From positions 1 through 41,685 of IMG/VR virus record IMGVR_UViG_3300013233_000122: DNA of 41,685 bases; one strand, given 5' to 3'. The DNA comes from a virus. Position numbers and translations under genes: made by a program. Shown one piece after another: positions 4,044 through 38,926 of the stretch. Under the pieces are notes generated by a model. It ran no database searches and was not told the DNA's origin. It worked only from the letters and a program-made list of their open reading frames with translations. Positions within the stretch are counted from its first letter, which is position 1, and each line of letters begins with the position of its first letter.

Positions 4044-4513
4044 TGGCTAAAAATAATCTTAAACCTTTAAGCCCTGCTAGGATTAAGAAATTCTTACAGG
4101 CTAGAACTGCTAAGATTATAAATAGTACCTCTGTGCGAGAGATTGCTGGAGAGGCTGCGGATGTTTTACTAAAACGTATACAGACTAGGTTTAAAGAACA
4201 AACATCCCCAGATGGTACTAAATGGCAAGAGTCTAGGGCTTCCATAGCTCGTAGAAAAAAGGGTAGTGGTAAGAATACAACCCTGTATGACTCTGGAGAC
4301 CTGTACAGAAGTATTAAGACTAGAGTTACCCAACGTGGTGGTGTGAGTGTTGCAGCCTCTGCCCCATATGCTTCAGTGCATCAGCATGGTGGCGTGGTTA
4401 TTTATAAGGGTCATAACCTGTTAATACCTGCCAGACCTTTTATGAATGTTACAAAACAAGATAGTGCCGCCGTCTTGAACGTGTTACGCTCTAGGCTTAA
4501 TAGGAGATATTGA
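4043..4513 (+). CDS. Tail completion protein, phage virion morphogenesis (gpS/Mu gpG-like) family
   Basis: 156 residues. It carries the family pattern clearly: RFKEQTSPDGTKW (about residues 52-64), ARRKKGSG, LYDSGDLYRSIKTRV, APYASVHQHGG, and LLIPARPFMNV near the C-terminus. Members sit at the head-tail interface and are needed to finish tails or join them to heads. The start overlaps the previous stop (TAATG). Confidence 0.8.
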   Translation: MAKNNLKPLSPARIKKFLQARTAKIINSTSVREIAGEAADVLLKRIQTRFKEQTSPDGTKWQESRASIARRKKGSGKNTTLYDSGDLYRSIKTRVTQRGGVSVAASAPYASVHQHGGVVIYKGHNLLIPARPFMNVTKQDSAAVLNVLRSRLNRRY

Positions 4514-33271: not shown

Positions 33272-34465
33272 ATGATTTATAAAGCAATTAGAGCTAGAAT
33301 CCCATTAGTTTCAGTAAAAACCCCAGACACCATACATCTTCGTATAGTTTTACAGTTCTATATAAACAAAGTTCTTGAAGAAGAAGGTGTTAAAAAAAGA
33401 GACAGCCCAACTATTGGAGTATTTAATGAGAAAGAACCTACAAAGTATACGTTCTCATTTGCTCATTGGGATGGTTTAAAGACTGTAAGTTTACACAGTA
33501 TTTATGAGAGCCTTAGAGAAGAGAGCTGTACGGTGTTTATTATCAACAGCGATGATTACCTTAAAATAGCTTTCGAGGTTGGGGAGCTACTACCTTGTAT
33601 CGACCATATCACCCAATTATTTGGGGAGCATGTTATGGCAGAGTACTTACCTCAGATAATTCCCATGGCACAAGGACTTACCATCAAAGAGATATTAGAC
33701 ATTTCTAACATAGCTATGGCGGAGTATAAGTGCATAACCCCAACAAGCTTTGCATCAGTAAAGAATAGCTGTATCCCTCCCGTTCTTGGTCTTAACTATG
33801 TTAACCCAGAAATCCCCTGCTACACCCCTAATCCAGAACTAAAAGCTTGGTTAGAGGATGAGGGTCAGTGTATTCATGTAGAGGATTCTTTATCGGATTT
33901 AGCACCACGAGGGTTACTGTTTGAAGGCGTTGCAGGTACGGGTAAGAGTCTAGGGGCTAAATATGTAGCCAATGAGCTTAATGTACCCTTGTACAACCTA
34001 TGTGTAGGGGAGCTTCTAGGTAAGTATGTGGGTGAGTCAGAAACACGTCTTAGAGAGGCTCTGATGAGGTTGGACTCTTATGCACCAGCCGTAGTTCTTA
34101 TAGATGAGGTAGAAAAGCTTTTTGAGGATGATGCAGGCTCAAACACTACCAGAAGCCTTTTAGCATTATTATTGTGGTGGTTGCAGGAGCATAGTAGTCG
34201 AGTACTAACTATTATGACTACAAATAATTCCTTAATCCTACCCAAGGAATTGTATAGGTCAGGGCGCATAGATAGGAGCATCATTTTTGAACCACTAAAT
34301 TATCAAGAAGCTAATGCGTTATTAGAGACTTACAGAAGCTCATTCGATTTACCAAGATATTACAAGTATGATATTTATAAAGATGGCGATAGCGTCACCG
34401 CCGCTGATGTAATATCAACAGGAAAAAGGTTGATGAGATTAGACTATTTAACAGATAGAGATTGA
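33272..34465 (+). CDS. AAA+ ATPase
   Basis: 397 residues. Residues 1-180 are an unrecognised N-terminal domain. Residues 205-345 are a classic AAA module: Walker A GVAGTGKS (219-226), pore-loop-like GKYVGES (250-256), Walker B VVLIDE (274-279), sensor-1 TTNN (316-319), and arginine-finger region YRSGRIDR (328-335). It resembles the clade of Vps4/FtsH-like remodellers rather than DnaC loaders. First gene of the replication transcript, so remodelling of a replication or host complex is plausible. GGAGG ribosome site. Confidence 0.75.
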   Translation: MIYKAIRARIPLVSVKTPDTIHLRIVLQFYINKVLEEEGVKKRDSPTIGVFNEKEPTKYTFSFAHWDGLKTVSLHSIYESLREESCTVFIINSDDYLKIAFEVGELLPCIDHITQLFGEHVMAEYLPQIIPMAQGLTIKEILDISNIAMAEYKCITPTSFASVKNSCIPPVLGLNYVNPEIPCYTPNPELKAWLEDEGQCIHVEDSLSDLAPRGLLFEGVAGTGKSLGAKYVANELNVPLYNLCVGELLGKYVGESETRLREALMRLDSYAPAVVLIDEVEKLFEDDAGSNTTRSLLALLLWWLQEHSSRVLTIMTTNNSLILPKELYRSGRIDRSIIFEPLNYQEANALLETYRSSFDLPRYYKYDIYKDGDSVTAADVISTGKRLMRLDYLTDRD

Positions 34466-34474
34466 GGAGAATAG

Positions 34475-36070
34475 ATGACAACATTTGTAATGATGCAACC
34501 AACCGTGGCACAAGAATACGGACTATTAAAAGCAATAATTCTACAACATGTACATTTAGGAGTTCAAACAGGATTTGCTAAAGAAAATAAAATGTGGAAG
34601 CCCTCAACACTCAGTAAGTTTTCTCAGGAACTGGGAGGAGTGTCGAGAGCCACCATTCAGAGGCATATTAAAACCCTTGTAGATATTGGAGCCTTGCGAG
34701 AAACGCCAAATAACCGAGGCAAAGCCTACCGTGTAGACTACAAAAGTCTAGGTCTACAAGAGCATATCGGAACCTTAATTAAGGAGGCAGAAGCCCATAT
34801 AAAGGTATGGCTCAAAGATATTAGAGAGTTTGGTTTAACCAAGGCAGTAGTTCTTGGGGCAATAAAAGGTACTTTGAAAAGGGTCGGCAACCTTATTAAG
34901 GGAGAATGCTGGGCATACAAGACAGGTGTTGAATTAGAGAAGGAGCTACAAACCTTAAGTAAAAACACTATCAGCAGGTCAACCACCTTATTAGTAAGAA
35001 AAGGGGTGTTAAAATCATCCTCAAACTTCAATAGAAGCTCCTCCGATAGAACACTCTGGTACACCGTAAATACCAAATATGAGTACAACCACAAAAAACC
35101 CACTGTTATCAAAATGGGTAAAGGGGTGTATCAAAATGGGGCAAGCACTGTTATCAAAATGGGGCACTCTAACCCTATATATAAAGACCTAGATATAAGA
35201 CCTAGATATAAGTGTGATGGCTTCGCATCACTGCCTCCCCTAGTCATTTCTTTCCTAGAGAAAAAAGAAAAAAGAAAAAAGAAAATAGGGTATACTCTTA
35301 CTAAGGTATATAGGACTACGTATCCTACGGAGGTAATACCTAATAACCTCTACGAGGTAACAACAACTATAAATGGAGTTAAAGAAATGAATGCTACTGC
35401 TTTACTAAAAACATCAGGTAGGAAAGATAAAAAGAATTATACTGGGACTGTTAGGGATATTATGTCTAAGGGTCTAGTGAAGGTTAAACCCTCTACACCT
35501 ATCCTACGTAAGAATACCGTTATGGGTTTTACAAGATTCTTCCATGAGGCTATGAGTACTTACGATGAGTCATACAAGCCTATGAGCTTTACTGGTAAAG
35601 AGCGTGGTATGGTTAAACACCTTCTAGCCAAGTGTTCTGATGATTTACAGGCTTTAGAGTATGTGATGTTAAACTGGAGAGACTTCTTTCACTATCTTGA
35701 GGATAATAACCTATCCTTCAATACCCCTAGATTGCCCCTCCTGCCCTTTTTACTGTCTAAGGTAGGCTATGTACCCACTGTGTACCAAAAACACCTTGAG
35801 TTTGTGCAAACGTGTGCAGAGGATGAGGTTAAAGCCTCTGAAGCCTCTAAGCGTAGTGAGGCTGCTCGTGAAGCTAGAATGTTGGCAGAAAAAGCTAGAT
35901 TAGAAGAGGAAGCCTCTTGTGACACCATGACTATGAAGGAAGCCTCTAAAGAGTTCCCAGCAGAATACCCTAATATGGTGGCGTACTTCACCACTACGGA
36001 TATTGCTGAGAAGGCTAGACTGTCTAAGGTAATGCTTGAAGGAGGTCTTGATGTTACAAAAGTTGTCTAA
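34475..36070 (+). CDS. Replication initiator-like protein with two winged-helix units
   Basis: 531 residues. Two similar helix-turn-helix/winged-helix units at about 14-75 (STLSKFSQELGGVSRATIQRHIKTLVDIGAL) and 120-195 (GVELEKELQTLSKNTISRSTTLLVRKGVL), a low-complexity middle (residues 205-275), and a helical C-terminal half ending in an Ala/Glu/Lys coiled coil. The layout (DNA binding, variable middle containing repeats in the DNA, then a partner-binding end) and the following loader-like and helicase genes are those of lambda O-type initiators. The gene itself carries the iteron cluster at 35107-35285. Confidence 0.65.
   Translation: MTTFVMMQPTVAQEYGLLKAIILQHVHLGVQTGFAKENKMWKPSTLSKFSQELGGVSRATIQRHIKTLVDIGALRETPNNRGKAYRVDYKSLGLQEHIGTLIKEAEAHIKVWLKDIREFGLTKAVVLGAIKGTLKRVGNLIKGECWAYKTGVELEKELQTLSKNTISRSTTLLVRKGVLKSSSNFNRSSSDRTLWYTVNTKYEYNHKKPTVIKMGKGVYQNGASTVIKMGHSNPIYKDLDIRPRYKCDGFASLPPLVISFLEKKEKRKKKIGYTLTKVYRTTYPTEVIPNNLYEVTTTINGVKEMNATALLKTSGRKDKKNYTGTVRDIMSKGLVKVKPSTPILRKNTVMGFTRFFHEAMSTYDESYKPMSFTGKERGMVKHLLAKCSDDLQALEYVMLNWRDFFHYLEDNNLSFNTPRLPLLPFLLSKVGYVPTVYQKHLEFVQTCAEDEVKASEASKRSEAAREARMLAEKARLEEEASCDTMTMKEASKEFPAEYPNMVAYFTTTDIAEKARLSKVMLEGGLDVTKVV
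35107..35285. other. Putative replication origin: iterons, 13-bp tandem repeat and purine tract
   Basis: Three copies of TATCAAAATGGG at 35107-35118, 35129-35140 and 35152-35163 (spacing 22 and 23 bp, about two helical turns). Then two tandem copies of AGACCTAGATATA at 35185-35210. Then a 29-base all-purine tract at 35257-35285 with a 7-bp period (GAAAAAA). Phage lambda has the same order, iterons then an A-rich tract, inside gene O. The element lies in the region that encodes the low-complexity middle of the protein. Confidence 0.65.
35804..35819. repeat. Degenerate copy of the 16-bp palindrome (14 of 16)
   Basis: GTGCAAACGTGTGCAG near the end of the initiator gene, coding VQTCAE. Two mismatches; a weak site or chance. 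Confidence 0.25.
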
Positions 36071-36632
36071 TATTGATTATTACGCTTCAGGGGTTCTTAC
36101 CAAGGAAAAGCATAGTAGGCTGGTATCCAACATTAGTAATGTTGCTGATGATGCTAATATCCCCACCACCATGATTGCTAAGCCTGCCTCCGAGTTTTGT
36201 GGGGAGGAGGAACTTAACTGGATTAGGGCTTATAAGCATTTAGAGGACTCTGAGGATGCTGGACTATGTTACGTAGGTAATGGGGGGGACATAGGGGTTC
36301 GTATGTTCGCCGTAGCAGGAGCTTTCCTGCGAAACTATATCAGAGCAAGGGTGTTCACCTTACAGGACGTTATAGAGTCATACAAAGGCTCAAAACCGTT
36401 AGAGGCTAGTGTCCTTCTAATACCTAACTTCTTCCTCAGAACTACTTCTGGTGGGAAGATACCTGAGTGGCAGCTTGGATTGGTTCTAGGCATGCTCTAC
36501 CAAAGGTACTCCTATGGTAATAAAACTGTTATATATGTTGAGGACTTAGAGCAACTTGGGGGAGCTTACGGGAACCCTATGAAAGAGCATATTGAGCGGC
36601 ATTTTAAGATTATTAAAGGGGGCAAGCTTTGA
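36051..36632 (+). CDS. Degenerate helicase-loader-like protein
   Basis: 193 residues from ATG 36051, preceded by AAGGAGGT, a nearly perfect ribosome site inside the initiator gene. The sequence follows a DnaC/IstB-like ATPase plan: GLCYVGNGGDIGVRMFAVAGAFLR (about 73-96) where Walker A would be, RARVFTLQDVIESY, ASVLLIPNFF (about 118-127) where Walker B would be, LGMLYQRYSYGNKTVIYVEDLEQL for sensor 1. The Walker A lysine and the Walker B acids are missing. It sits between initiator and helicase, the expected place of a loader. Assignment is by pattern and context. Confidence 0.5.
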   Translation: MLQKLSNIDYYASGVLTKEKHSRLVSNISNVADDANIPTTMIAKPASEFCGEEELNWIRAYKHLEDSEDAGLCYVGNGGDIGVRMFAVAGAFLRNYIRARVFTLQDVIESYKGSKPLEASVLLIPNFFLRTTSGGKIPEWQLGLVLGMLYQRYSYGNKTVIYVEDLEQLGGAYGNPMKEHIERHFKIIKGGKL

Positions 36633-37882
36633 GCAGCGCAGGGGTTTCATTATTACATAGCATTATTGTTGATAAAGATAGCAAAGCTTTTTTACATTTA
36701 GGATTAACTAAAGATGACTTTGGTATTAACGAATCAGACCTTTTCACCTTTCTTCAAGAGCATTTACAAGGTTATGGGCAATTACCAGCCATAGAAACAG
36801 TAGAGACACAGTTTGGTATGGAGATTTCTAAACCGTGTGAACCATTAGCCTATTACCATGATATTGTGAGGAAGAAATCCTTACAAAGAAACCTCAAGAA
36901 GTCCTTACTAGATACCAGTAGCACTTTGCAGGACATGAACCCCGATAAGGCTTTAAAGGATTTAACTAAGACCGTTTTAGAGCTTACCTTAAAAACTAAT
37001 GGTAAGAAGGTCTTAGACTTTAGGGAATCTAAAGATATTATTTTAGAGCTTCACCAGACAGCGGCAACCAGTCCAGAGTTTGCTGGGCTTAGGTTTGGTT
37101 GGGATTTTCTTGATGCCTCTACAGGTGGTATTAGAGGTGGGGACATGTTGTCCATTGTTGGGCGACCTTGTATGGGTAAGACGTTCCTACTTTTATTCAC
37201 TGCCTTAAATGCTTGGGCTAATTCTAAAGTAGCGGTTATGTTTGTATCTATGGAGATGAAGCCTGAGCTGATATTCCAACGGTTAGCTGCCATGTTTACA
37301 GGACTAAACCTTACCAAACTTATGAATGCAGAATTATCTACACCAGACTTTGGTAAGTTAATGGGTATGTTATCAGGTATTGATAGTGAGGATATGCCAC
37401 CATTTTATGTTATTGATGGTAACTTATCAGCCAGCGTTAATGATATATACATTTTGGCAAGGCAGCTAAAACCTGAAGCCTTGTTTATTGATGGTGCGTA
37501 TCTCGTACGACATGCAGATACTCGACTAAATAAATATGCCCGCATTGAGGCTAACTGCGAACTATTTAAAACTCAGTTAGCAGGTGACTTGGATATACCT
37601 GTATGCTTATCATATCAATTTAATCGGGATGCTACTAAGGTTAAAAAGGATGAATCAGCAAGCTTAGAACACATTGCTGGGTCAGATGCTATTGGTCAGC
37701 TATCTAGCGTTGTTTTGGGGCTAATGCAGGAGGATAATATTGAAACCCTGTTCACCAGAGAAGTGTCTGTTTTGAAAGGTCGTAATGGGGAGATTGGTTC
37801 TTTTAGGATTAACTGGGATTTTAATAAAATGGACTTCTCGCAGGTTAAGGATTTCGACTACACAGACTTAGATGTAGTTTAG
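36629..37882 (+). CDS. DnaB-like replicative DNA helicase
   Basis: 417 residues, TTG start at 36629 overlapping the previous stop (TTGA), with GGGGG upstream; the next in-frame ATG is far inside. N-terminal helical domain (1-110), then the RecA-like core: FGWDFLDASTGGIRGGDMLSIVGRPCMGKT with Walker A at 178-185, VAVMFVSMEMKPELIFQRLAA, PEALFIDGAYLV (Walker B), and CLSYQFNRDA (H4-like). It unwinds DNA ahead of the fork. No primase gene is visible in the window. Confidence 0.85.
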   Translation: MSSAGVSLLHSIIVDKDSKAFLHLGLTKDDFGINESDLFTFLQEHLQGYGQLPAIETVETQFGMEISKPCEPLAYYHDIVRKKSLQRNLKKSLLDTSSTLQDMNPDKALKDLTKTVLELTLKTNGKKVLDFRESKDIILELHQTAATSPEFAGLRFGWDFLDASTGGIRGGDMLSIVGRPCMGKTFLLLFTALNAWANSKVAVMFVSMEMKPELIFQRLAAMFTGLNLTKLMNAELSTPDFGKLMGMLSGIDSEDMPPFYVIDGNLSASVNDIYILARQLKPEALFIDGAYLVRHADTRLNKYARIEANCELFKTQLAGDLDIPVCLSYQFNRDATKVKKDESASLEHIAGSDAIGQLSSVVLGLMQEDNIETLFTREVSVLKGRNGEIGSFRINWDFNKMDFSQVKDFDYTDLDVV

Positions 37883-38245: not shown

Positions 38246-38459
38246 TTTTAGATATAGGTCAGTAGATTTAGCTTGCAAGGTGTGCCACCACAATGTGAAA
38301 GTCTTAGTAGACCAGTGGTATCAAACTACTGAGGATGTAACCCCAGATTATTGTGAAAAATGTTTGGATGAGGATTCCCGCAGTGAGCAACTACTAAAAA
38401 TATCTAGTCAATATACTAAATTTAGGGGCTATCGTGCCTATAAGAGGGTAACAACATGA
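38229..38459 (+). CDS. Small zinc-ribbon protein
   Basis: 76 residues from ATG 38229, with GGAGG at 38217-38221. Two Cys pairs, CKVC (residues 16-19) and CEKC (about 42-45), 22 residues apart, form a zinc-ribbon pattern. Could bind nucleic acid or a host protein. ATGA overlap with the carrier protein gene. Confidence 0.6.
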   Translation: MSTLPNFRYRSVDLACKVCHHNVKVLVDQWYQTTEDVTPDYCEKCLDEDSRSEQLLKISSQYTKFRGYRAYKRVTT

Positions 38460-38926
38460 GCAAGGCTATCGAAGATAAGATATTAGAAATTCTACGAACC
38501 AATTTAAACTTAGGCACGGACACAATACTTCCTAAAGATTTATTAGTAGAGGATTTATCGGCAGATTCTTTAGACCTAGTAGAATTAGTGATGGCAGCAG
38601 AAGAAGAGTTTGGGGTAGTCATACCAGATAGTGATGTAGAGAATATTGTTAGGGTTAAAGAGTGCATTGACTACATTACTACTAAGGTAGACGAGAGTAC
38701 GCCAAAGATTGGTACTCATTTTGGTGAGGGCATTACCTATAAAAAAGTCCATCGGACTACTACTACATTTATAGAAGAGCCTAAAGACCAGACCGTAAGA
38801 TACCTAGAGTATATTGCATATCTTGAGAAAGAATTATGTGAGCACTATATCGGTAATAGCATTGAGCATATCCAAAAACAAACAACTAAATTATTAAGAA
38901 AGCGTGAGGAATTATTAGATGAATAA
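38456..38926 (+). CDS. Acyl carrier protein with a C-terminal extension
   Basis: 156 residues. Residues 1-80 are a typical carrier protein: LVEDLSADSLDLVELVMAAEEEFGVVIPD, with Ser38 in the DSLD motif as the site for 4'-phosphopantetheine. Residues 81-156 are an extra region with HRTTTTFIEEPKDQ and a C-terminal coiled coil (YLEYIAYLEKELCEHY). Normal bacterial ACP is about 78 residues. No fatty-acid enzyme is present nearby, so the protein may use host enzymes or act on a host acyl pathway. ATGA overlap upstream. Confidence 0.8.
   Translation: MSKAIEDKILEILRTNLNLGTDTILPKDLLVEDLSADSLDLVELVMAAEEEFGVVIPDSDVENIVRVKECIDYITTKVDESTPKIGTHFGEGITYKKVHRTTTTFIEEPKDQTVRYLEYIAYLEKELCEHYIGNSIEHIQKQTTKLLRKREELLDE

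Follow-up and report, generated by a model that had tools for sequence, protein, structure and literature searches.

An iteron-type candidate replication origin embedded in the initiator gene of a tailed phage and its relatives

Introduction

The closest precedents for the locus described here are the O/ori region of phage lambda and the origins of RepA_N plasmids such as pSK41. In lambda, gene O contains iterons at start-to-start distances of 20, 24 and 23 bp, and an A-rich tract comes after them (PMC7466680, PMC5043065). In pSK41, four boxes in the central part of the rep gene are bound by the N-terminal domain (NTD) of Rep itself, the linker encoded there is dispensable, and the C-terminal domain (CTD) of RepA_N proteins is helical and DnaD-like (PMC5703833). 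At RepA_N-type origins semi-palindromic repeats converge on a poly-A tract (PMC7145576). In the staphylococcal pPR9-type hybrid Rep, whose HTH_36 NTD is phage-derived, this domain and the origin have been swapped together as a module (PMC5703833), and Rep_3 iteron plasmids carry direct repeats that are asymmetric and about 22 bp long, to which the initiator binds as a monomer (PMC5043065).

The stretch of DNA analysed here (the window), a linear virus record of 41,685 bases, belongs to a tailed phage; it contains a long tape-measure gene and, at 33-38 kb, a replication module (Table 1). The initial annotation had placed an iteron-type origin candidate inside the initiator gene of this module. 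We computed the repeats and their DNA-level nature, the profile-based identity of the gene, its synteny and domain layout, and the architecture that is kept in relatives despite iteron turnover. The profiles, the gene order and the arrays found at the same place in relatives support the candidate, and we consider it highly probable that the repeats form the theta-type replication origin of the phage, embedded within its own initiator gene. The layout is the known intragenic iteron origin type, as in phage lambda.

Table 1. Coordinates of the initiator gene, its encoded domains, its DNA repeats and the adjacent replication genes in the window.
Feature	Position	Strand	Basis or remark
AAA-ATPase gene, preceding initiator in relatives too	33272-34465	+	Pfam AAA 2.1e-25; synteny
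Replication initiator gene, 531 codons, contains candidate origin	34475-36070	+	ORF, profiles
Winged-helix unit 1, residues 6-75	34490-34699	+	WH profile 12.6 bits; AlphaFold model
Winged-helix unit 2, residues 119-202	34829-35080	+	WH profile 32.0 bits; pLDDT about 90-96
Disordered linker, residues 208-340, all DNA repeats within	35096-35494	+	pLDDT about 30-45
Iteron 1, TATCAAAATGGG	35107-35118	+	exact copy
Iteron 2, TATCAAAATGGG	35129-35140	+	exact copy; reading frame differs from iterons 1 and 3
Iteron 3, TATCAAAATGGG	35152-35163	+	exact copy
13-bp tandem repeat, 72% AT	35170-35212	+	strand-opening element (likely)
A-rich purine tract, AGAAAAA x3.9	35259-35285	+	opening-region extension (possible)
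Conserved C-terminal helical domain, residues 345-430	35507-35764	+	pLDDT about 90-97
198-aa ORF between initiator and helicase	36036-36632	+	position conserved in relatives
DnaB-type replicative helicase	36629-37882	+	Pfam DnaB_C 6.3e-30; PHROG 19 4.7e-54

Results and discussion

The initiator and its replication module

By profile, position and predicted structure, the gene at 34475-36070 is the replication initiator of the phage. Its product matched PHROG profiles of initiators and DnaD-like loaders (phrog_6493, 7.5e-18; phrog_11233, 9.6e-15; phrog_428, 2.4e-11), and a family profile made of 30 shorter relatives recognised it at E=1.7e-33. Among the members of this family, 22 of 25 matched phrog_428 and 20 of 25 matched phrog_6493. 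Close relatives of the protein were found in no viral contigs, and phages gave only local matches of about 28-37%; because the initiator search yielded no close ones, related loci were gathered through patterns of the adjacent helicase and AAA-ATPase.

The N-terminus had been read initially as two winged-helix units, and three lines of evidence agree on this reading: a winged-helix profile built from relatives with a single such unit, the alignment of both window units with the single unit of the relative L002 (whose helicase is 55% identical to that of the window), and the predicted structure. According to the AlphaFold models, which rest on shallow alignments of 25-27 sequences, the DNA repeats coincide with a predicted disordered linker, and the single-winged-helix protein of L002 follows the same plan, with its linker at residues 129-204. 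Since the segment that separates the coding regions of the two domains encodes only a flexible linker, it can evolve as an origin at no cost to the protein. The helical CTD of the window protein, which aligns to the C-termini of the L002 and L012 proteins, is likely a contact for a partner or for the helicase.

The order AAA-ATPase, initiator, ORF of about 200 aa and DnaB-type helicase is conserved across relatives. The group sharing it includes L002, Rhodobacter phage RcZahn, Rhizobium phages RHph_TM16 and Y1_11, Vibrio phages and many IMG/VR contigs. In many of these phages the AAA-ATPase gene was found 5' of the initiator, and in nearly all of them an ORF of similar size separates the initiator from the helicase. 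The 198-aa product of the window, which gave no match in a Pfam search, is presumed to be the helicase loader, and the ORF may represent a family of helicase loaders not described before.

Two further observations concern the genes in and around this module. The DnaB-type helicases of L012 (3456-5696) and L042 (3423-5693) carry an in-frame LAGLIDADG insert, which in L012 splits the Walker A motif as GK|T, starts with Ala and ends with THN before Thr; judged from these sequences, both inserts are probably inteins, that of L012 of the Ala-1 type. In the window, the product of the gene at 38456-38926 combines an acyl-carrier (phosphopantetheine attachment) domain at its N-terminus (Pfam 1e-8; phrog_5934, 3.4e-14) with a C-terminal extension.

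Repeats within the initiator gene

The three copies of TATCAAAATGGG reported in the initial annotation as spaced by 22-23 bp proved exact to the base, with starts at 35107, 35129 and 35152 and hence spacings of 22 and then 23 bp, and no other exact copy occurs on either strand of the window. Of the longer sequence CACTGTTATCAAAATGGG there are two complete copies, at 35101 and 35146. The 13-bp tandem repeats and the 7-bp-periodic purine tract described along with them are likewise present (35174-35212 and 35259-35285): AAGACCTAGATAT occurs twice at 35184-35209, and Tandem Repeats Finder (TRF) extends this array to 2.9 copies at 35174-35212. The iteron array (score 90) and the 13-mer array (score 62) are the top two tandem repeats that TRF finds in the window.

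Since a disordered linker is indeed encoded here, and such linkers tolerate repeats, the array might be seen as a by-product of a low-complexity, repeat-rich protein segment with no function at the DNA level. Translation of the copies speaks against it: iterons 1 and 3 encode V-I-K-M-G while iteron 2 encodes Y-Q-N-G, and the copies of the 13-mer likewise shift their reading frame. Because the copies fall in different frames, the repeat is a feature of the DNA and not of the protein. When synonymous codons were shuffled with the protein kept fixed, a 12-mer occurring three times within 80 bp arose in only 1 of 2000 shuffles, and the best TRF score of 300 shuffles was 71 against the observed 90. 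The failure of synonymous shuffles to reproduce the array, together with the slipping frames, places the constraint at the DNA level and leads us to reject an explanation by protein repeats. In the related phages, moreover, 29 of 49 iteron spacings are not multiples of three, and the same position is occupied by arrays of 22-24 bp that are unrelated in sequence and often palindromic. A mere linker by-product is thus very improbable.

Direct repeats near replication genes may also serve partition, and a parS-like partition or incompatibility site, or a packaging site, could by chance lie within an initiator gene. The site is not flanked by any partition or terminase gene, though, and its neighbours are replication genes conserved in relatives, which leaves this possibility the most remote of those considered.

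Arrays in related phages

Our comparison of the loci sharing the module revealed a tandem array of 20-26 bp units within the initiator gene in 29 of 54 (23 of 43 in the first batch), the set having been picked by helicase or ATPase patterns and including some close relatives, so that it is not a random sample. Outside the initiator only 6 arrays were found in 582 kb, an enrichment of about 46-fold per base in the initiator. No array was called in the other 25 loci at the TRF score of 60 or more that was required, a threshold that degraded arrays escape. Several array-less phages (L004, L006, L009 and L043) retain the 12-13-bp element.

Spacings of 22-24 bp account for 45 of the 49 measured in relatives, as the comparison of repeat spacing suggested by the initial annotation brought out, and the iteron sequences are unrelated from phage to phage, many of them being inverted repeats. 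L002 carries TCCCAAAGTGCCAAAATGGCACTA three times, 24 and 23 bp apart and in two reading frames; RcZahn carries CGGTGCAGATATGCACCA three times at 23/23 spacing, followed by three 12-mers; and Vibrio phage LV6 has four copies of a 21-bp unit. The initial annotation had named, as the outcome that would speak against an origin, relatives that conserve the protein and lose the DNA repeats; what the relatives retain is the place and the spacing of the array, each with its own sequence. The phage group thus has a fixed origin-initiator layout in which each member has its own recognition sequence.

An AT-rich stretch adjoins the iterons. In the window it is the 72% AT 13-bp repeat at 35170-35212, predicted to be the likely strand-opening element, and in 22 of 23 loci the 60 nt located 3' of the array exceed the gene in AT content. 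A periodicity of 12 bp follows the array (z=10.0; z=10.8 with 29 loci), and we regard this common 12-bp repeat as a candidate for the element at which the strands open. A literature search that covered older papers on phage replication modules thinly brought up no description of such a repeat in the initiator genes of phages.

These data also bear on an operator or autoregulatory site, through which the initiator would act as repressor of its own operon or of the replication genes downstream, while the origin would lie elsewhere. Winged-helix proteins are commonly repressors, and the nearest Pfam matches of the window protein are generic HTH regulator families. The array nevertheless sits about 0.63 kb into the coding sequence and not at a promoter, many of the phages have after it the AT-rich, 12-13-bp-periodic stretch expected of an opening element, and the window has no second array comparable to it. 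We therefore regard an operator as improbable, and an origin remains our preferred reading.

Some related loci showed two further patterns. The initiator genes of two Vibrio phages, L007 (10215-10256) and L009 (10231-10256), contain TA-rich repeats of 11-13 bp (CTTATAAGTAT and TACTAAGTATTAA), and 20-26 bp iterons were not detected in them; they would present an opening element with no visible binding-site repeats. In Stenotrophomonas phage Summit (L005), a 23-bp tandem repeat of 2.1 copies at 4338-4385, about 1.6 kb 5' of the helicase, sits within a gene annotated as 'putative membrane protein', which may be an unrecognised Delepquintavirus initiator containing the origin.

Comparison with lambda and plasmid origins

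The likeness to lambda O/ori, claimed initially as one of principle, holds at the level of architecture. In both loci the iterons lie centrally in the initiator gene and an A/T- and purine-rich tract comes next (AAAAGAAAAAAGAAAAG after the annotated iterons of gene O in lambda); both also have N-terminal DNA binding and, directly after the initiator gene, a loader gene, these two being presumed in the window. The four iterons of lambda are inverted repeats bound by O dimers, whereas the window has three with the non-palindromic core TATCAAAATGGG; the window differs further in its tandem winged helices and in its own phage DnaB-type helicase. The gene family had been called not recognisable as lambda O, and neither sequence nor profile comparison showed a significant similarity between the two. 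Pfam Phage_rep_O gave no match to the window initiator, and homology to lambda O was not found (BLASTP E 0.14; hhalign probability 0.6%), the O-like matches in PHROG being only distant.

RepA_N plasmids resemble the locus no less closely than lambda does. Their initiators (pSK41 Rep, pTZ2162 RepA and Vibrio PLE RepA) share with the window protein a winged-helix NTD and a linker encoded by the origin, and the L002 iteron, GTGCC-AAAA-TGGCAC, resembles the semi-palindromic repeats and poly-A tract of RepA_N-type origins. The RepA_N NTD 4PQL was the top fold match in both structure searches, at a weak E of about 1e-2, and the RepA_N NTD structures 4PT7, 5KBJ and 4PQL were matched at E of about 7e-4 with profile A2, matches which did not recur with profile A5. 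Pfam RepA_N (PF06970) gave no match. The window protein differs by its two winged helices; its CTD is predicted to be compact and helical, the matches to DnaD-like loader PHROGs lie mainly over the winged helix, and fold searches gave no structural match for the CTD.

The pPR9-type Rep resembles the window protein in that HTH_36 is among the top Pfam matches of the latter, below the cut-off; HTH_36 is also the commonest Pfam match among relatives (5 of 25, best 1.8e-13). It differs in belonging to a plasmid, and the window protein itself stays under the HTH_36 cut-off. The window resembles Rep_3 iteron plasmids in its direct repeats, which are asymmetric and measure about 22 bp. In pSK639, by contrast, the iterons lie outside the rep gene, and the window protein has no Pfam match to a Rep_3 domain at E<=1.

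Proposed initiation mechanism

From the anatomy of the locus and from precedent, we infer iteron binding, strand opening, helicase loading and actual use of the origin as follows. The N-terminal winged helices of the initiator would bind the three iterons, which lie on one face of the DNA because they are about two helical turns apart. The bound initiator would wrap or bend the DNA, and the resulting stress would open the neighbouring AT-rich 13-mer together with the A-rich region. Next, the helical CTD and the 198-aa product, which would act as loader, would bring in the DnaB-type helicase encoded by the adjacent gene.

The GC-skew analysis proposed in the initial annotation turned out to be uninformative, neither for nor against an origin here: there is no sign change at the site in the window and no convincing one in RcZahn, TM16 or the L002 contig. 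Matches to the tested DnaA-box consensus number four in the window, which is the level of chance, and none is near the site. For an origin of lambda type, the lack of a DnaA box near the site is neutral.

Tandem winged helices and asymmetric iterons

The window combines a duplicated winged helix with an asymmetric iteron core, whereas in most relatives with a single winged helix the iterons are inverted repeats. This points to the hypothesis of an entire iteron being read by a single chain. The association of tandem winged helices with non-palindromic iterons gave p=0.016 by one score and p=0.20 by another, with four long-N cases, and a further search for relatives with tandem units brought little gain; the combination may represent a variant way of reading iterons, for which the statistics are weak. 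The Rep_3 initiator is itself a two-winged-helix monomer. We put forward only tentatively, and as rather unlikely, a covalent 'built-in dimer' that would read both halves of the iteron, joined with a purine-rich 12-13-bp opening signal common to the phage group. If the built-in dimer were true, a dimer-palindrome origin of the lambda or RepA_N kind would have been turned into one that is read in the manner of an iteron plasmid.

Conclusions

The phage group carrying this intragenic origin is undescribed in this respect: no mention of an origin was found in the literature for these siphophages, and the terms 'origin of replication' and 'iteron' are both absent from the RcZahn paper. Our analysis provides a concrete, testable candidate origin for a large group of siphophages of 75-100 kb that includes Rhodobacter phage RcZahn, Rhizobium phages RHph_TM16 and Y1_11, Vibrio phage LV6 and others. 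The common 12-bp repeat is a candidate opening element that can be tested by one assay across many phages. As the layout is fixed while the recognition sequence turns over, the group offers dozens of natural pairs of initiator and iteron from which the DNA specificity of winged helices may be learned.
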